Source of the DNA: Verrucomicrobiota bacterium | GTDB taxonomy: Bacteria; Verrucomicrobiota; Verrucomicrobiia; Chthoniobacterales; JAFAMB01 | Assembly: GCA_019239825.1 (NCBI GenBank) | Contig: JAFAZK010000145.1 | Location: 1-64,000 of the forward strand | Direction: 5' to 3' | Length of the DNA stretch: 64,000 nt | Shown: one piece after another, positions 8,067 to 38,454 of the stretch | Position numbering within the stretch: the stretch's first letter is position 1 | Layout: every line of letters begins with the position of its first letter | The notes under the pieces: generated by a model | Told to the model about the DNA's origin: nothing | The model's input: only the letters and a program-made list of their open reading frames with translations | Databases searched by the model: none | Position numbers and translations under genes: made by a program

Positions 8067-8076
8067 GGGAGCCTTC

Positions 8077-8165
<89 letters not shown>

Positions 8166-8230
8166 AACGCGTCGTCCTTTACCGCGGCAATGATCGGTGC
8201 TTCCATTAAAATGTTTTAATCGGCGGTTAA

Positions 8231-19090: not shown

Positions 19091-19630
19091 CCGCGAATGG
19101 ACACGAATGAACGCGAATAAAAGACAATCACTCGTGTGAATTGGCGTCCCTTCGTAGCCTGTCCGCCATCGCTTATCGCACCAAAAAGTTCTCGATGTGG
19201 CTCCAGCCCGGGTGCCGCGAGAGATTGTCACGCGTGCCCGTATTTTGATACAGTGACCGGGGAAACGATGCTCTTACGCGCTGTCATCGAAGAGACCGAA
19301 ACTGAGATCGCCGTCGTGACCTTCTATAGACCAAACAAGCGAGATGCATTTGCGCTAACCAAGAGTAAAAAACGTCTGGCACAAAGGTTTCGCTCTACCT
19401 CTGCGTCCGCCGCGTCCTCTGCGCGAGGCTTTATCTTTAGGATTCAGGCAGCAATTGACACGCCGCGGACGTGAGACTAAACAATCGACCGCGAATGGAC
19501 ACGAATTGAAGCGAAGACAAAAGGAATAAATCCGACCGCAGATTTAATCGGCCGTCGTTAAAGCTATGGCAGACAGGCTGCGAACTCACGCGAATAGTTC
19601 ACCCCTTATTCGTGTTCATTCGCGGTTAAT
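19091..19630. repeat. inverted micro-repeat arms (CGCGAATGGACACGAATG type)
   Basis: Imperfect tandem 9-10 bp units (GCGAATGGAC, ACGAATGAAC, GCGAAT) occur at 19091-19120 and 19487-19518. The inverted form (TTATTCGTGTTCATTCGCGG) lies at 19607-19626. The arms flank a stretch with only a degraded coding fragment. Another unit-type repeat (CTCTGCGTCCGCCGCGTCCT) is at about 19398-19428. Confidence 0.65.
19136..19474 (+). pseudogene. possible remnant of a small toxin-like (DUF4258-like) gene
   Basis: The middle of this frame (GETMLLRAVIEETETEIAVV then TFYRPNK) resembles the C-terminal strands of DUF4258-like proteins. The start lacks a ribosome-binding site, the N-terminal part matches nothing I know, and the C-terminal third is translated micro-repeat. 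It may be a decayed toxin-antitoxin partner; a chance frame is equally possible. Confidence 0.25.
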
Positions 19631-22630: not shown

Positions 22631-22776
22631 CGCTCCTAACGGAGCTGGTCGCTCTCTACATTACCCGTTGCTATAAAGATTTCGCTCCTCCGGAGCTAGG
22701 CATGGGATCGGCTGAATCAAACCAGAACGAAATCAAGTTTTTCAACGCCAGCTCCGGAGGAGCGAAATCTTTATAG
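22631..22776. repeat. R-family repeats including a perfect inverted pair
   Basis: A short copy lies at 22631-22648. Full copies at 22671-22697 and 22750-22776 are perfect 27-bp inverted repeats of each other. The right copy overlaps the end of the HAD gene and supplies its stop codon. The remaining 22254-22630 contains the upstream region of the LamB-like gene and no supported gene. Confidence 0.8.
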
Positions 22777-23544
22777 CGCCGGACAGATCCTACGGAGTGC
22801 TTCGGCGACGCCGTCTCCACCAGCTTGTTCTGCTACGTAACCGCCGTGACATCTAACCCTTTCTTTGACCTCATCCACACTGTTGGCGGGACAAGCCAAA
22901 TGACGGGCGATCTCAGAGTCGAGCATCGGTAAATCGTTGAAGTTGTCCCCTGCGGCAAAAGTCTCATGCGGTTCAACTCCTAGATGAGTTTGCAGCGCTT
23001 TGAGTACAGACCCTTTATGATAAAACGAGTGGCAAAACCGGAGATAAATGGAGTTTCTCTGGAAAGACAAATTTGCGACCGGCCGGCATTTCAAGCGCAG
23101 GTATTCTACGGTGCGGTCCATCTCATCGTTGTTTTGCGCAATCAATCCAACCATCCGCCCATGCTCCCGATAGGAACGCACCTGTCGCTCATTCGTGATG
23201 TAAGCCTCGATCTCAGCCAAAAGTATAGCGGCCTCGATGTAGAGTTCCTCGTGATCTTGGTGGCATCGTTCATTCCATTCGGATAACGGTTCCCACCCTT
23301 GTTTCGTCCTGCAAAAGACCTCTCGTTCGGTCGTCAGTGCAAAGTCGGGTATCGCAGGGAAAAGTTCCATCCCTTGATCCACCAGGGCCAAATTGCGCCC
23401 CGTGTTAATAGCCAGCAGCGCGCCTCCTTTTCTCAGCGCGGCCAGACAACGCACTAATTCTTCACTAACCGCCGCTTTCCCATCCAACCAAGGCCCGACC
23501 ATGGTGCCGTCGAAATCTAAGCTGAGAAGGCGGAGGTTAGTCAT
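22771..23544 (-). CDS. HAD-superfamily phosphatase, Cof/IIB type
   Basis: The 257-residue protein has HAD motif I (LSLDFDGTMVG, nucleophile Asp), motif II (LLAINTGRN), motif III Lys (HKGSVLKALQ) and motif IV (FAAGDNFNDLPML). The cap between motifs II and III is of the C2B type found in Cof-like sugar or cofactor phosphatases. The final codons and TAA stop are contributed by an R-family repeat, so the C-terminus may have been trimmed. No operon partner is evident; an inverted micro-repeat separates it from the gspF gene upstream in sequence. Confidence 0.88.
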   Translation of the reverse strand: MTNLRLLSLDFDGTMVGPWLDGKAAVSEELVRCLAALRKGGALLAINTGRNLALVDQGMELFPAIPDFALTTEREVFCRTKQGWEPLSEWNERCHQDHEELYIEAAILLAEIEAYITNERQVRSYREHGRMVGLIAQNNDEMDRTVEYLRLKCRPVANLSFQRNSIYLRFCHSFYHKGSVLKALQTHLGVEPHETFAAGDNFNDLPMLDSEIARHLACPANSVDEVKERVRCHGGYVAEQAGGDGVAEALRRICPAL

Positions 23545-23559
23545 GCTAGAAACGGGTGG

Positions 23560-23732
23560 GAGGTGGCTGGAAAGTAATCAGTAGGTCAGTAATCAGTGCT
23601 CCACGAGCGACGGCTGAGCTTTGGAAATACTGGCTTTATGCAAACCGTCAAGTTCCGAACCGGATCTCAACATCGTGACAACTCTTACTGACTACTGGCT
23701 CACTGATTACTGATTACTAATCCGAGCCACCT
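23560..23732. repeat. inverted micro-repeat hairpin (AGTAATCAGTA type)
   Basis: Left arm 23560-23602 contains AGTAATCAGTAGGTCAGTAA; right arm 23686-23732 contains its inverse (CTGATTACTGATTACTAATC). The homology extends outward into GAGGTGGCT/AGCCACCTC. The arms enclose about 85 nt between the HAD and gspF genes. Confidence 0.75.
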
Positions 23733-25019: not shown

Positions 25020-25188
25020 GTGAGAGGTGAGAAGTGAGAAGTGAGAGGTGAGAGGTAACGACTGCAGGGGCTCTATTCGTAATTCCGAGCTTACGGATCA
25101 TAAAAGTTCTTCGGTACGATTCGTTTCGTTCGGTTTGAACGGCTGGCACGTAGAACCACCAATCACCTCTCACGTCTCACTTCTCACG
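25020..25188. repeat. inverted micro-repeat hairpin (GTGAGAGGTGAGAAG type)
   Basis: Left arm 25020-25060 consists of 7-8 bp GTGAGAGG/GTGAGAA units; right arm 25161-25188 is the inverse (ACCTCTCACGTCTCACTTCT). It occupies most of the gap between gspF and gspE and would form a long stem in a shared transcript. Confidence 0.75.
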
Positions 25189-27114: not shown

Positions 27115-27409
27115 CTTTGGTGGGGCGAGGCTCCCTAACGGCCCTATCATGTTAACGAAACCACAACAGTATTCTCGATCCCAACCTTCTGCTATGCCAA
27201 GACCCGTGCCGAGCCGCGGGTATCAGCGTGGCTGCGGATAATCGCCCGACCGCATAATCCACGCTGCCATTCTCGCACCAAGACCATTGCTGCGATGCTC
27301 AGACTCACGGCTCGGCGCGTCTATTGGCCTAACAAGATCAGGTGCCGTCATCGCGGTGGATTTCTTCGCAAACACGATAGAAACGTCCGGGAGCCTCGCC
27401 CTACCAAAA
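27115..27409. repeat. family A nested-palindrome element, copy A2
   Basis: Outer arms CTTTGGTGGGGCGAGGCTCC (27115-27135) and the inverse at 27389-27409 differ at one or two bases. Inner GCCGAGCCG/CGGCTCGGC arms lie at 27208-27216 and 27308-27316. The element is about 295 bp. The preceding 26892-27114 shows a weak hairpin near 26964 but no gene. Confidence 0.82.
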
Positions 27410-27439: not shown

Positions 27440-28339
27440 CTATCTAGCAGTCCCCATCAGCGCCTGGCGCATCGCAGCTAATGGAACGGGTTGGCCAAAC
27501 CAGTGTTCAAAGGCAAAAGCGCCTTGATGCAGTAACATTAGCCGGCCATCCACTGCCGGGACCCCGTTCTGTTCTGCCCAGGTTACCAGCGGCGTGTCTC
27601 CCTGCGGACGATAAACCATATCGAATAAGCGATGTTCTGGACGCAACCACTTCGGGTCCCAATCCAGGGGACCGTCCTTGAGTCCTAAAGATGACGCATT
27701 GATGATTAAGTCGGCTTCCAGGAAAACCCGTCGAAGTTGATGGAAATCCCAAAAGGTCACACCGGAATTCGAGACCAGTTCGCGACGAAGTCCGTCCATT
27801 TTTTCGACAGTACGGTTAACCAGCAAAAGCCTTTCCGGTCTCAGATTCGCCAAGAAACGGGCCGACGCCTGCCCTGCCCCGCCCCCGGCTCCTAGCAAGG
27901 CAATCTTGGATTTAGCTAATTCGACCCCAAAAGCATCGAACAGCGCGGACTGGAGACCGCGACCGTCCGTGTTGAATCCGATCAGCTTACCATCCTGGTT
28001 CACCACCGTGTTGATTGCGCCTAAGGCTTCGGCTTCGGAGTCAAGACGATCAACCAATCTATATCCGGCAATTTTGTGAGGGATGGTCAGATTCCAACCG
28101 ATAAATCCCAGCTTTCGCAAACATCTGAAAGCTGTCTCTAGCTGAGCCGGCGAAACCAGAAGTCGATCGTACCGGTAAGGTAGCCCACGGGCTTCCAGAG
28201 CCGCATTCTGCATCGGTGGTGAAAGCGAATGCTCCACGGGATCACCTAGCACCGCGAGTTGAAACCCTGCAGTGTTAGCGCCTGCTAACAACGCTTGTAG
28301 GCTCTCCACGGTCCACGCCACAGAAGATTTAAGATCCAC
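27440..28339 (-). CDS. aroE: shikimate dehydrogenase
   Basis: The protein (299 residues from the annotated GTG) catalyses NADPH-dependent reduction of 3-dehydroshikimate to shikimate. Visible motifs are the substrate site VEHSLSPPMQNAA, catalytic Lys in NLTIPHK, Asn/Asp in NTDGRGLQ, the NADP-binding glycines LLGAGGGAGQAS and the closing MLLHQGAFAFEHWFG. The conserved core starts near AGFQLAVLGDPVEHS. The upstream codons run directly into a CACAGATTAC micro-repeat, so the GTG at 28339 is uncertain and a GTG closer to the core (for example 28321) is possible. Confidence 0.93.
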   Translation of the reverse strand: MDLKSSVAWTVESLQALLAGANTAGFQLAVLGDPVEHSLSPPMQNAALEARGLPYRYDRLLVSPAQLETAFRCLRKLGFIGWNLTIPHKIAGYRLVDRLDSEAEALGAINTVVNQDGKLIGFNTDGRGLQSALFDAFGVELAKSKIALLGAGGGAGQASARFLANLRPERLLLVNRTVEKMDGLRRELVSNSGVTFWDFHQLRRVFLEADLIINASSLGLKDGPLDWDPKWLRPEHRLFDMVYRPQGDTPLVTWAEQNGVPAVDGRLMLLHQGAFAFEHWFGQPVPLAAMRQALMGTAR

Positions 28340-28364
28340 AGATTACACAGATTACGCAGATTAG
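28337..28364. repeat. micro-repeat at the aroE start (CACAGATTAC units)
   Basis: Three imperfect tandem units of CACAGATTA(C) run from 28337 to 28364 and overlap the annotated start codon of aroE. No inverted partner is seen nearby. Confidence 0.7.
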
Positions 28365-28404
28365 AAGGCATCGAAAGGCAAGAAAAAGTCGCTTATCCCC
28401 AAGC

Positions 28405-28841
28405 GGAGGGGCGTTGCATTCCGCTTTCGCAGCTAAAACGGATGTCGACGCTCGGAAAGTGTTTTCAGGTTTGTCGTGCGGAGAGACGCGACGCCCGGGA
28501 ACTTTGGTGGGGCGAGGCTCCCGAACGTTATATGGTGTTTGCGAAGAATCCACTGTGGTGGCGCCGCCTGATCTTGTTAGGCCGATCGACGCGCCGAGCC
28601 ATGGGTCTGAGCGTTGCAGCACCATTTAGCTTTGCCGCGAGATTTGGTGGCGTGGATTAGGCGGTCGGACGGTTAGCCGCAACCACACTGAATACCCGCG
28701 GCTCGGCACGGGTTTTGGCATCCGGGGGCGCTGGGATCGAGTACACTTGCGGCTTCGTTAACATCATAGGGTGATAAGGGAGCCTCGCCCCACCAAAGTC
28801 GACCCAATTTTAGCTGCGAAAGCTGAATGCAACGCCTCTCC
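28405..28841. repeat. family C inverted arms enclosing a family A element
   Basis: Arms 28405-28438 and 28808-28841 share CGTTGCATTC and CTTTCGCAGCTAAAA and match in inverted orientation with two mismatches in 34 bp. They enclose copy A3 and form a compound palindrome of about 437 bp between aroE and gltX. Confidence 0.75.
28501..28799. repeat. family A nested-palindrome element, copy A3
   Basis: Perfect 22-bp inverted arms lie at 28501-28522 and 28778-28799 (core TTTGGTGGGGCGAGGCTCCC), with inner arms GCCGAGCC/GGCTCGGC. Length is 299 bp. It is nested inside the family C arms. Confidence 0.85.
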
Positions 28842-28897
28842 GGTCTGGGATCAGCGACACTTTCGGGGCTGCGGATCTTAATTTCGGATTTCGGGAA

Positions 28898-30250: not shown

Positions 30251-30338
30251 TGACTAACCAATTCTCGCGTAGGGGTGGGTTTCAACTAATTTTTGGCTAC
30301 CTGGGAGCCTTGTCGCCGCTGTGTTGCACACCCAGAGC

Positions 30339-30619
30339 CTGGAGGGGAGCCGCTTTTGCCCGTCCTAAGTTGAACGGACGTTCTTGGAGAAATGCGTGTA
30401 CCAGACTGAGCGTGTGCCTGGCAGGCGGCTCCCGCTAACGTCCTGAGATCTCGCCACCGATCACATGGTCGTTCGGTTCGAAAGATCAAACACCGTTCGG
30501 TTAATTTACGCGTCGAGACGTTTCCGGGAGCCGCCTGCTAAAGGACTATGAGTTGTGCTACGATTGTTCGCCTTGTCCTGCCGGCGGTTCCGCCACATTC
30601 AAAAGCGGCTCCCCTCCAG
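30339..30619. repeat. family B nested-palindrome element, copy B3
   Basis: Perfect 19-bp outer arms CTGGAGGGGAGCCGCTTTT lie at 30339-30357 and 30601-30619. Inner arms GGCAGGCGGCTCCCG and CGGGAGCCGCCTGC lie near 30420-30435 and 30525-30538. Length is 281 bp. It fills the gap between gltX and the DUF6600-like gene. Confidence 0.87.
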
Positions 30620-30701
30620 GCGCTCACCTCGAAAAACACGTCGGGATTCGGTCTCTGATATTGCGCTAGACTTCTCGGCTTGCTTACACATCGTCACCCT
30701 A

Positions 30702-32507
30702 ATGTTGCCGCGCGTGCGAAAACTCCTGGCCCTGGTTTTTCTGATCGCGATTTCTCTCGTGGGGTCGGTAGCCAACCCGTCGCCAACCCCGACTCAACGT
30801 CCCCTCCCCCTGGCAATCGGCAAAAGCCCTTCGAACGACCCCAGACCGGCTTCTACAAAGATTTCGCTCCTACGGAGCTGGACCGTCATCCGGGGCGTTA
30901 AGTCAGCGGTCCCACCACGGCCTGACGTTTTCCGCGTTCTGTTATCGCAGACGCGTTCGTTGTCACTCCAAAACTCCATTGCTCCAACACTCCAATACTC
31001 CGTCACTCCTCCTCCAATCCACTCCTCCACGGTATACGAGGAATCCCCAGTCCCAAACCAGGCTGACCTCAACGACTCCTACGACGTATTCTACCACCAA
31101 CTATCTGCTGATGGACATTGGCTCTTTGCGGAGAATTTCGGGTATGTCTATCAGCCCAAAGTAGCCGAGAAAGACCCGAATTGGCGCCCTTACACGAACG
31201 GGCATTGGGAGGCGACAGACCGCGGTTGGTATTGGGATACCGACGAGCCGTTCGGTTGGGCTACCTATCACTATGGACGCTGGGCAAACATCGACGGCAC
31301 CGGATGGGTTTGGACGCCCGGGATCGATTGGTCGCCAGCTTGGGTCTCATGGCGAATCTGCGACAACGGTTTTGTCGGCTGGGCTCCCCTACCGCCGGAA
31401 TGTCCCCGACCTAGCGATGCCGTCCCGATCGGGAGTTGGTGCGATTCCTATGCCGATATCGGACCCGAGGCGTTTTGTTTTTTGCCGTTCAACGCGTGGT
31501 TCAAACCAAGCTATGTCGGGTTATTTGCTCCGGCATCTCAGAATCGGGAACTGATTAACGCGAGCCGTAATGTTACCAACATTTCGGCAAGCAAAACGAC
31601 GATCAGCGACTTTGGTCCCCGCCCAGACTTCATTGCCCAAGAAACGGGACAAGAAGTTAAGACCTATCAACTTCATTACTCTGAAGTCAGGGGACAACAT
31701 AATTTCTCGAGGTCCATCAACGGCAATCTGCTGAATGTCGAGGGCCCTGCGGTCAAGCTGAAGGCGAATGCCACTAAGGTGCCCACGGTCATAAAGACAA
31801 TCGTAAGGCCTGCCGTCAATAAGGGCTGGAACGGTTTGACCAAAGAAGACATCGACGGTGTGCATCAGAAATATGCTTCGGAGGCGCACATCCCGAGACA
31901 TCTGCCAAATAAGCCAATCGAGCGGGTCAATCTGGTGCCAAGCGCAACCCCAGCGGTGGCCCGGTCAGCCAGTGATCAGAAACAAAAAGAACCCAAGGAG
32001 CACAAGGCGACCGCGAACGCGAGCCCTCAAAAAGAGACCAAAGAAAAGACGGCAACCGCCTCAGCCCACAAGAAGACCGCGAAGCATAAAACGGCCTCCG
32101 AATCGGAGGACGAAAGCGGTTCGAAGGGAGAGAGCAAATCGAAGGTAAAATCAAAGACGGCTAAGGCATCTAAGGAGACTCAGGATACTGACGAATCTAA
32201 GACTCCAAACAAGAAGACGGCCAAGAGTGGCAGCGCTAAGAGCGACGGCCAGTCAAAGAGCACAAAGACCTCGAAGAGCTCGGGCGGATCGAAGGGCGAA
32301 GATTCCGGGGCCGAAGGCTCGAAGAGCAGCACTGGCTCGAAAGATGAAGGGTCGAAGAGCGGTTCGAAGAAAAGTTCGAACGGTGAAGACTCCAGGGGCG
32401 ATGGGTCCAAGAAAAGCGGAAGCTCGAAGCGTGAAGGACCTAAGAGTGAATCGACGAGCGAAGGCCCGAAGAGAAGCCAGAAGAAGTCTTCAGACGAAAA
32501 AGACTAA
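30702..32507 (+). CDS. secreted DUF6600/YXWGXW-like protein with a long Lys/Ser-rich tail
   Basis: The start at 30702 (MLPRVRKLLALVFLIAISLV) gives a signal peptide; the longer frame to 30555 would begin in repeat B3. The 601-residue protein has a Trp/Gly/Tyr-rich central domain (GHWEATDRGWYWDTDEPFGW, YGRWANIDGTGWVWTPGIDW, FVGWAPLPPECP) of the DUF6600 kind. About 190 residues of low complexity rich in Lys, Ser, Thr, Gly and Glu follow. Between the signal peptide and the domain, residues 51-60 are encoded by an R-family repeat and about 89-110 by an ACTCC micro-repeat, so this linker seems to tolerate insertions. Function is unknown; the strongly basic tail may bind nucleic acid or surface polymers. 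Confidence 0.8.
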   Translation: MLPRVRKLLALVFLIAISLVGSVANPSPTPTQRPLPLAIGKSPSNDPRPASTKISLLRSWTVIRGVKSAVPPRPDVFRVLLSQTRSLSLQNSIAPTLQYSVTPPPIHSSTVYEESPVPNQADLNDSYDVFYHQLSADGHWLFAENFGYVYQPKVAEKDPNWRPYTNGHWEATDRGWYWDTDEPFGWATYHYGRWANIDGTGWVWTPGIDWSPAWVSWRICDNGFVGWAPLPPECPRPSDAVPIGSWCDSYADIGPEAFCFLPFNAWFKPSYVGLFAPASQNRELINASRNVTNISASKTTISDFGPRPDFIAQETGQEVKTYQLHYSEVRGQHNFSRSINGNLLNVEGPAVKLKANATKVPTVIKTIVRPAVNKGWNGLTKEDIDGVHQKYASEAHIPRHLPNKPIERVNLVPSATPAVARSASDQKQKEPKEHKATANASPQKETKEKTATASAHKKTAKHKTASESEDESGSKGESKSKVKSKTAKASKETQDTDESKTPNKKTAKSGSAKSDGQSKSTKTSKSSGGSKGEDSGAEGSKSSTGSKDEGSKSGSKKSSNGEDSRGDGSKKSGSSKREGPKSESTSEGPKRSQKKSSDEKD

Positions 32508-33016: not shown

Positions 33017-33340
33017 CTAGAGGGAGCCGCTTTTGACTGTTGCTCGGAACCTGAGCTGACCGGGCAAATAGGCATTGTACGGCCGAGACGTTTCCCTGGC
33101 AGGCGGCTCCTGGGAACGTCCCACAAAATGTTTCACCTAGTGACCTGTCGGCGAAATAACATAGCCTTCGCGGACAGGTCACTAGTCGCGCGGCCGGTCG
33201 GAAACAATCGACGGCGGTAGATTGTAAGGGCGTCAGGGCCGATTTCGGGAGCCGCCTGCTAAGCACACGCCTACGCCGCAAACGCCGGGTTTCAGAAATT
33301 TGCGTGCAAACGGGCTCGGGTAAAAGCGGCTCCCCTCCAG
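33017..33340. repeat. family B nested-palindrome element, copy B4
   Basis: The left arm 33017-33034 is a slightly diverged CTAGAGGGAGCCGCTTTT; the right arm 33322-33340 is the standard inverse. Inner arms lie at 33097-33120 and 33245-33261. A third central pair CTAGTGACCTGTC/GACAGGTCACTAG lies at 33138-33150 and 33173-33185. Length is about 324 bp. Confidence 0.82.
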
Positions 33341-33378: not shown

Positions 33379-33468
33379 CGCAGTACTCCAGTACTCCAGT
33401 ACTCCATCACTCCATCACTCCGCGTGGCCGGATTCGAGGACGAGGACGACGACGAGTACGAGAACGAA
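33379..33468. repeat. micro-repeats upstream of the Pup-ligase-like gene
   Basis: AGTACTCC/ATCACTCC units (33379-33421) are followed by CGAGGACGAGGACGACGACG-type units (33437-33468). The same ACTCC type occurs at 30966-31029 and 38398-38432. The open frame continues through them to 33304, but the translated product is repeat-derived. Confidence 0.7.
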
Positions 33469-35539: not shown

Positions 35540-35673
35540 AACTCGCCTGAGGCTCGTTCGAATGACAAATGACGGATAACAAATGACAAAATGTCGTGTT
35601 CGAGCTCCGGGGACATGACCGATCTGTCATCTGTCATTTGTGATCTGTCATTCAAACGAGCCTAAGGCGAGTT
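35540..35673 (+). repeat. inverted micro-repeat hairpin directly upstream of pncB
   Basis: Arms 35540-35596 and 35614-35673 are inverted copies. The outer part AACTCGCC(T)GAGGCTCGTT and adjacent AATGACAAATGAC-type units pair for about 55 bp with few mismatches. The right arm ends 6 nt before the pncB ATG, and no Shine-Dalgarno sequence is visible. The structure could terminate upstream transcripts or hide the pncB start. Confidence 0.75.
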
Positions 35674-37155: not shown

Positions 37156-37343
37156 GTGCCTAGAGTAAAGCAGTAAGCAGTAAATAGTCGATAGTAGCTA
37201 GAAATTACCGTAACCAATAGACGAGTTAGAAGAACTAGGAAAATCAGTGGTAGTAAAACAGGCAGTCGTCTGCCGGCTCCTCCTAACTCCTGAGCTGCTC
37301 ACTGACTACTGCTTACTGTTTACTGCTTACTGCTTAGAGCCCC
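37156..37343 (+). repeat. inverted micro-repeat hairpin directly upstream of pncA
   Basis: Left arm 37156-37198 (AAAGCAGTAAGCAGTAAATA) and right arm 37292-37343 (TACTGCTTACTGTTTACTGC) are inverted. A weaker inner pair (GAGTTAGAAG/TCCTAACTC) lies between them. The right arm ends 2 nt before the pncA ATG, the same arrangement as at pncB with unrelated unit sequence. Confidence 0.75.
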
Positions 37344-37948: not shown

Positions 37949-37951
37949 GAA

Positions 37952-37997
37952 GGTGAGAGGTGATTGGTGAGAGGTGATTGGGAGAGGTGATTGGTGA
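37952..37997. repeat. micro-repeat GGTGAGAGGTGATTGGTGAG units after pncA
   Basis: Four imperfect GGTGAGAGGTGATT units follow the pncA stop. A short inverted match (CACCAATAACCAATCACTT) occurs at 42029-42047, on the other side of the autotransporter gene. The gap 37949-38454 also contains an ACTCC micro-repeat at 38398-38432; I see no gene in it. Confidence 0.65.
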
Positions 37998-38454
37998 TGC
38001 GGATCGTCCTAACATACCGGATGATCGGGACGACAGGCATCCGCCGCAGATCCTGCGCGCGCTTCAGCAGCAGCGCAGTATGGTGTTCGGGAAGCCGATT
38101 GTGCTTGATCTGCCCGGGTCCAATTTACTAACCTTTCCTCTGTCGAGGCTGCGGTTCAGCTCTCGTCCGGTCGATACCTCCGGGAAGGGTGGTCATTAAG
38201 CAGGACGCGAACAGATAAAATTTTATACCCGCTTGATATGGCGAATTGTGACTTCGAAGCAGCCGGAAAAGAGCGCAGACCTGGGCGCGCGGCTGGAAGC
38301 GATCGCTTGAGTAAAATTAATCAAAGCACCAATGCACGCTGAAAGAACTTGCAACCGGCTGCCACGCAATCCCCGGCGAGATCAATCGCAAAAGACCAGT
38401 ACTCCACCACTCCAAAACTCCATCACTCCGGCTCCGAGCCGGAGCGCTATCTTC

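Follow-up and report, generated by a model that had tools for sequence, protein, structure and literature searches.

Inverted arms of tandem micro-repeats as probable ends of small mobile elements that carry IVP or GxxExxY genes

The inverted micro-repeat arms of this DNA are probably terminal inverted repeats, the ends of small mobile elements whose gene-bearing copies carry an IVP or a GxxExxY gene. Here, IVP stands for the 23S-rRNA-IVP/four-helix-bundle family (S23p, PF05635) and GxxExxY for the nuclease-like family that Pfam names PDDEXK_3. We observed directly the anatomy of the elements, their association with the two kinds of gene, the covariation of protein and arm, the dispersal of the unit families, filled and empty sites on plasmids, and a non-coding copy inside a gene. 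An element would be laid out as tandem units of 7 to 10 bp, a body, and the same units inverted, and the body of a gene-bearing copy would be one short gene, either IVP/four-helix-bundle or GxxExxY (PDDEXK_3). The encoded protein would recognize its own arms and would move coding as well as non-coding copies or help them to move. Insertion would occur into intergenic gaps, often flush with a stop codon, different families would reuse the same gaps, and the arms would decay independently after insertion to leave one-armed remnants.

Arms and elements of the window

The window, which is the whole 64-kb stretch of DNA that was analyzed, had been read from its letters as carrying tandem short units at eight or more sites, several of them paired as inverted arms. 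Both statements held. Tandem units of 7 to 10 bp were present at all of the listed places, and in 5 of 10 window stretches, inverted pairing exceeded that of 300 of 300 dinucleotide shuffles. The stretches that passed the shuffle test were the arm pairs of AGTAATC, GTGAGAR, AATGACA, AGTAAGC, and CGCGAATGGA. Stretches 28330, 30960, 33375, 37945, and 38395 gave no pairing beyond shuffles, three of the five being too short and scoring 0 by construction. The CACAGATTA site, the three ACTCC sites, and the GGTGATT site are single arms in the window.

The AGTAATC element is non-coding and was delimited by its arrays and their pairing, with a left arm at 23573..23597 (plus strand) and an inverted right arm at 23685..23718 (minus strand); as a whole (23573-23718), it presumably sits between a HAD-like gene and pilC. 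The GTGAGAR element, delimited likewise, has a left arm at 25020..25056 (plus) paired with a right arm at 25163..25187 (minus), folds as RNA with a z of -7.1, and occupies (25020-25187) what we take to be the gap between pilC and pilB. A third, non-coding element at 35540..35673, to which no strand is assigned, lies between a thioredoxin-like gene and pncB; its AATGACA arms (35561-35590 and 35622-35651) are nested within a longer palindrome with an outer CTCGCCTGAGGCTCG (CTCGCC) stem. In the gap between pncB and pncA, an AGTAAGC left arm at 37164..37184 (plus) pairs with a right arm at 37295..37336 (minus). The CGCGAATGGA arms, built of 10-bp units, are found at 19091..19118 and 19490..19506 (both plus), and the latter is the shuffle-tested partner of an inverted arm at 19608..19630 (minus). 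What may be the remnant of a gene, a 112-aa frame, lies at 19136-19474, with CGCGAATGGA arms on either side. Single arms were found directly past pncA (37951..37998, plus, GGTGATT/GGTGAGA units), at 28337..28363 (plus, CACAGATTA/CGCAGATTA), and, for the ACTCC family (TGGAGTAT on the opposite strand), at 30965..31009, 33381..33421, and 38401..38429 (all minus). Flank scores, the shuffle test, and folds all indicated complementary, stem-forming termini, and the RNA folds of window elements had z values against shuffles of -7.1, -11.0 (35540-35673), -3.9, and -4.3. Elsewhere in the window, a tandem CGAGCA/CGAGCGC array at 8076-8170 resembles the CGAGCACG arms that are paired at L014:18400 and L040:11106.

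Genes between the arms and insertions on plasmids

The arms bracket two gene families. Profile matches in the genome numbered 15 for PF05635, 11 of them over the cut-off, and 9 for PF13366; the IVP set left out L062 and L063, which fell below the family cut-off, kept L060, which also did, and excluded L061 and L102 as second pieces of the same genes. With an inverted score of at least 36 as the threshold of the flank test, inverted arms bracketed all 11 own-genome IVP genes that had two flanks (a 12th was cut by a contig end) and 8 of the 9 own-genome GxxExxY genes. Control ORFs of the own-genome sample were bracketed in 7 of 473 cases, and one of the seven was itself a GxxExxY gene. Bracketing extended to 15 of 19 IVP genes (a 20th was cut) from three congeneric species, to 7 of 9 from further genera of the family, where another 4 of the 13 loci were too short in flank to be scored, and to 23 of 29 GxxExxY genes across the phylum (a 30th was cut). 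Named IVP loci from many phyla (n = 80, two of them cut) were bracketed in 36 of 78 cases, or 48 of 78 at a threshold of 30, and the neighboring ORFs in these loci in 3 of 153. Because 30 of the 78 named loci scored below 30, many IVP copies must have lost their arms or never had them. Direct repeats reaching 36 were found at 0 of 11 own-genome, 0 of 19 genus, 0 of 9 family, and 4 of 78 named IVP genes and at 1 of 9 own-genome and 4 of 29 phylum-wide GxxExxY genes. The orientation of IVP genes relative to their neighbors was near the base rate, and a preferred orientation within operons, which plasmid cases had suggested, was not borne out. GxxExxY neighbors were on the same strand more often than were other pairs in a small comparison set (8 of 20).

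Gene-bearing partners were found for 7 of the 8 listed unit families. Coding partners were L051 in the own genome and L106 in genome G003 for AGTAATC, L052 for AGTAAGC, L059, L060, and L104 for GTGAGAR, L101 in G002 for GGTGATT (inverted score 33), and L057 and L109 for ACTCC; GxxExxY genes were the partners of CGCGAATGGA (L070) and CACAGATTA (L066). No coding partner for AATGACA was found among the loci examined. IVP elements have units of 7 to 8 bp, rarely 9, and GxxExxY elements have units mostly of 9 to 10 bp. Moreover, each protein subfamily, judging by the sequences compared, has its own unit. Among 70 IVP loci, from which L148 was dropped as a duplicate of L100 with the same arms, similarity of the 5' arm tracked protein identity with a Mantel rho of 0.65 (0 of 2000 permutations), and between-phylum pairs alone gave a rho of 0.48 (n = 713 pairs, which are not independent of one another, so that no p value is attached). 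Arm similarity rose only when the arm was read in the direction of the gene. The correlation of arm with protein, which holds also between phyla, leads us to conclude that the arm belongs to a unit that travels with the gene.

The copies in the window are non-coding. An IVP/S23p (PF05635) frame is found in the body of coding copies and not in that of window copies, which are either deletion derivatives or copies of a MITE-like kind with other bodies. Derivative forms exist within GTGAGAR arms: the IVP gene is truncated in L059 and has lost an internal part in L060. The spacers were considered as decayed IVP or GxxExxY genes, and this was rejected because the profile search matched the body of only L060, 1 of the 43 paired elements of the sample. 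Nearly all non-coding copies in the own genome have a unique body, and two copies at different loci have 22 of 27 positions of a body segment in common. Descent of non-coding from gene-bearing copies was shown for few. Only 4 of the 43 elements lay mostly within an ORF, compared with 78% of random segments, and none of the window elements or compared sites is in a 23S rRNA helix, all of them being placed between protein genes.

Insertion is seen on plasmids, where IVP genes occurred in 38 records, mostly of cyanobacteria of the Nostoc kind; the close filled and empty records are cyanobacterial and come from outside the genus of the window. At sites 1, 3, 4, 5, and 6, some records were filled and others empty, with flanks 86-98% identical. 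Site 1 was filled on Trichormus and Scytonema plasmids and empty in Aulosira and Tolypothrix, which were 97-98% identical to the query. The element at site 1 ends in AAATCAGAATTCAG...CTGAGTTCTTCTTT, and the GTAAT at both sides is likely a 5-bp target duplication; on a Nostoc plasmid, the element is reduced to its left arm and a piece of the gene. Site 3 was filled in two records, empty in one, and occupied in another by a different non-coding element with GGGAAC arms. Site 4 was filled in two records and empty in three, and in one of the filled copies (L265), the IVP gene is itself interrupted by a 182-bp non-coding element with arms of the same kind. The query used for this insertion resembled sequence in 43 plasmid records, some of the matches being due to its IVP-gene part. 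At sites 5 and 6, filled and empty records matched at about 90% and 88.5%, and the insertion coincides with the stop codon of the gene upstream of it, these genes being a phage-type integrase and cas10. No target duplication was evident at sites 3, 4, 5, and 6, and at the latter two, the original target is uncertain, since the final codons of the gene upstream are not the same either. Site 2, between cas6 and cas4, was rejected as a clean empty site because Dolichospermum has another inverted-repeat insert there, and copies on two Calothrix plasmids were rejected as separate insertions because the surrounding genes are common to both. IVP genes also stand in plasmid CRISPR loci, between cas10 and cmr3 in L269 (Picosynechococcus PCC 7003) and between cas6 and cas4 in L254 (Anabaena sp. 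90).

Movement need not be the work of the bracketed gene. An unrelated host enzyme could move the elements in trans, with the IVP and GxxExxY proteins as passengers that profit from the element or protect it. In keeping with passengers, one architecture is common to two unrelated proteins, neither protein is a known transposase, and movement is seen in a non-coding copy whose body is unrelated, the one inside the IVP gene of L265. Arm sequence, however, follows protein subfamily across phyla, the Y1 genes are bracketed by palindromes of their own and not by micro-repeat arms, and the elements were not seen to share any other gene. We therefore regard the passenger explanation as unlikely and prefer elements that are served by the proteins they encode.

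Orthologous gaps, unit families, and inverted geometry

Different families occupy the same gaps in related species. The pncB-pncA gap holds AGTAAGC in the own genome (G000), AGTAATC in G003, and GTAACGA in G006, which belongs to another genus. The thioredoxin-pncB gap holds AATGACA in the own genome and CAGGAGTT arms in G003, and the gap at L012:1826 holds AGTAAYC, AGTAAGC, GTGAGAR, or GTGAKTR-like arms, depending on the species. When 38 own gene pairs were compared with three relatives, an element was found in both gaps in 11 cases, in the own gap only in 8, in that of the relative only in 5, and in neither in 51, counts that are pooled, are not corrected for gap length, and come from relatives that are not independent. 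Selection might keep a hairpin in such gaps, as a transcript end, an RNase III cut, or an mRNA-stabilizing stem, and elements might be recruited or replaced to supply it. Indeed, folding of the window elements is much stronger than that of shuffles (z of -3.9 to -11.0), and the gap counts are those of sister species in which different families fill the same gaps. Against a need for the hairpin, some orthologous gaps are empty: the pilB-pilC element is kept in G002, but G001 has the gap without an element, and the element at L012:15974 is found in G003 alone, the gap being empty in three of four species. Moreover, arms change without compensation, one insertion fell within an IVP gene, and the association with genes would go unexplained. 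We consider hairpin selection very improbable as the explanation of the arms.

How the arms arise had been answered differently by the sequence-only reading, which took the units to be unique to their sites and suggested that arms emerged independently, short seeds at the site being extended by a hairpin-templated or reverse-transcription-like step. The arms of one site do match each other, and array length and unit copy number do vary. The units, however, belong to dispersed families. BLAST gives 116 genome matches for GTGAGAR, and in the own-genome sample (40 stretches and the window, together 635 kb of the 6.67-Mb genome), AGTAATC forms 24 arrays, and AATGACA, AGTAAGC, GGTGATT, CAGGAGTT, CGCGAATGGA, and others also recur. 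Unit families are found in the genus and in other phyla as well. One off-register 8-bp unit (AGTGAGTC and variants) is common to many left and right AGTAATC arms at different loci, and thus, these arms are copies of a common end. At L026:1011, AGTAATC arms are nested around CAGGAGTT. A heptamer consensus for all units, RRTRANN, was enriched among good fits but was set aside, since the frequent AGTAATC arrays match it imperfectly owing to their off-register unit.

Arms that grew from seeds might be expected to change in length and to change together, and the sequence-only reading had proposed comparing them across strains. Two elements kept between G000 and G002 (pilB-pilC and L012:3994) differ by nine arm substitutions (3+1 and 4+1) and by the gain of one 7-bp unit. 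A unit gain was seen, as growth in place would have it, but 0 of the 10 changes were mirrored in the other arm. Independent evolution of the two arms, which that reading had itself named as counterevidence, is what was found. Both arms may indeed differ together between species at orthologous sites, but the spacer then differs as well, and therefore, replacement by another element fits better than re-writing of the arms. In addition, empty sites lack both arms and body, and no RVT_1 protein was found in the assembly. The shared families, the common layout, the unmirrored changes, and the missing RVT_1 protein make growth from local seeds highly improbable, and we return to arms as the ends of mobile elements.

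Dispersal did not go with a loss of inversion bias, a combination that had also been named as counterevidence. An inverted partner within 350 bp was found for 74 of 167 period-7/14 arrays in the 635-kb sample, a direct partner for 2, and a match in a control region 4-6 kb away for 5. Because 20 of the 40 sample stretches were picked around GTGAGA matches and the others blind, only the blind part is unbiased; blind contigs and the window together gave 15 inverted, 0 direct, and 1 control match for 39 arrays. The earlier suggestion that a shared geometry reflects an active process was borne out; the inverted families are probably the ends of elements. Ordinary slippage microsatellites paired by chance would explain tandem units that slip and vary in copy number and deserve next to no credence in view of 74 inverted against 2 direct partners and of the association with genes.

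Candidate proteins and known systems

The IVP and GxxExxY proteins are natural candidates for the role of reading the ends. No catalytic domain is known in IVP, and no recognized transposase or recombinase domain was found there; the NCBIfam name of the family is four helix bundle, and solved homologues, such as 2GSC of X. campestris, are uncharacterized bundles. IVP matches the Avd model below its cut-off. The passages of PMC10053308 covered here relate IVP to Avd, a protein of diversity-generating retroelements, and a title cited there describes a Xanthomonas homologue as an assembly of five four-helix bundles. A reverse transcriptase (RVT_1, PF00078) was sought and not found in the assembly, which is 95.8% complete. 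Y1 transposases were rejected as movers, as the three Y1 genes of the genome are flanked by their own, different palindromes and so are unlikely to serve the arms. The window has GCTCCTCCGGAGCT palindromes of a REP/REPIN-like family at 22665-22697 and 22750-22782, and palindromes of this kind also flank L288, a Y1 transposase gene of the genome.

We tentatively propose a broader reading, which is plausible but far from secure: the elements may form a widespread and so far unrecognized class that moves without a transposase of known kind, in which IVP or GxxExxY proteins read the arms, as DNA or as an RNA stem, and move anything between them. The rRNA intervening sequences would then be one landing site, and the heptamer repeats of cyanobacteria, Xanthomonas, and other bacteria would be footprints. 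If so, two common "hypothetical" families (four helix bundle/S23p and GxxExxY) would gain a context and a testable role, the origin of many intergenic micro-repeats would be explained, and rRNA intervening sequences would be connected with intergenic elements. The plasmid strains offer a place where movement could be measured. Among open-licence PMC papers, none was found that joins micro-repeat arms with IVP or GxxExxY genes or with mobility, and the letters of the repeats gave only unrelated matches, apparently primers, or none.

Several known systems share some of these features. Diversity-generating retroelements differ in that here no PF00078 reverse transcriptase stands beside the Avd-like protein. 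REP/REPIN-RAYT systems likewise pair dispersed inverted repeats with a single gene family, but here the Y1 genes lie between palindromes of their own, and the arms are not linked to Y1. MITEs are similarly short, non-coding, and intergenic, with terminal inverted repeats; the ends here, however, are tandem micro-repeats, the bodies are mostly unique, and the partner gene is no known transposase. Internal sequence is shared by one weak pair in the own genome, and the cyanobacterial copy is similar to sequences of plasmid records. Empty sites are present, with a likely GTAAT duplication at one site and none evident elsewhere. Conventional MITE-like repeats also occur in the window, at 27116-27408 and 28382-28864, with GGGAGCCTCGCCCCACCAAA ends and copies elsewhere in the genome and in the genus; another family, with GGGAGCCGCTTTTG ends, occurs at 30334-30624 and 33022-33334. 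The STRR sequences are heptanucleotide repeats of cyanobacteria. They resemble the arms as heptamer arrays and occur in the group where plasmid IVP genes are mostly found, but they have no linked gene or inverted architecture, as far as the listed descriptions go.

Closer likenesses are found in two further cases. In Xanthomonas (GGGAATC) and Nostoc (GGGGA(C/T)T), heptamers are tandem and intergenic, and convergent pairs number 70 and 75 in two Xanthomonas genomes (PMC4692102). They thus resemble the present arms in being tandem, intergenic, and convergent, Xanthomonas being compared by description only. The passages of that paper covered here describe the heptamers as generally unassociated with mobile elements, do not mention xcc0516, and draw no link to a gene family. 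TAACTGA heptamers of Beggiatoaceae are almost all direct, according to the part of PMC4679880 covered. Finally, the intervening sequence of Coxiella is treated, in the part of PMC4990558 covered, as a selfish element that has an S23p frame and whose ends complement each other; older suggestions recounted there make such sequences transposition remnants or mobile elements, with the frame aiding mobility. Like the elements here, the rRNA intervening sequences of Coxiella and Leptospira are short, have stem-forming complementary borders, and have one S23p gene as the body (PMC4990558). Unlike them, the present elements lie in gaps between protein genes rather than in rRNA helices and have subfamily-specific tandem arms of 7-10 bp units; many copies are non-coding, some carry a protein of a second family, and sites are filled in some records and empty in others.
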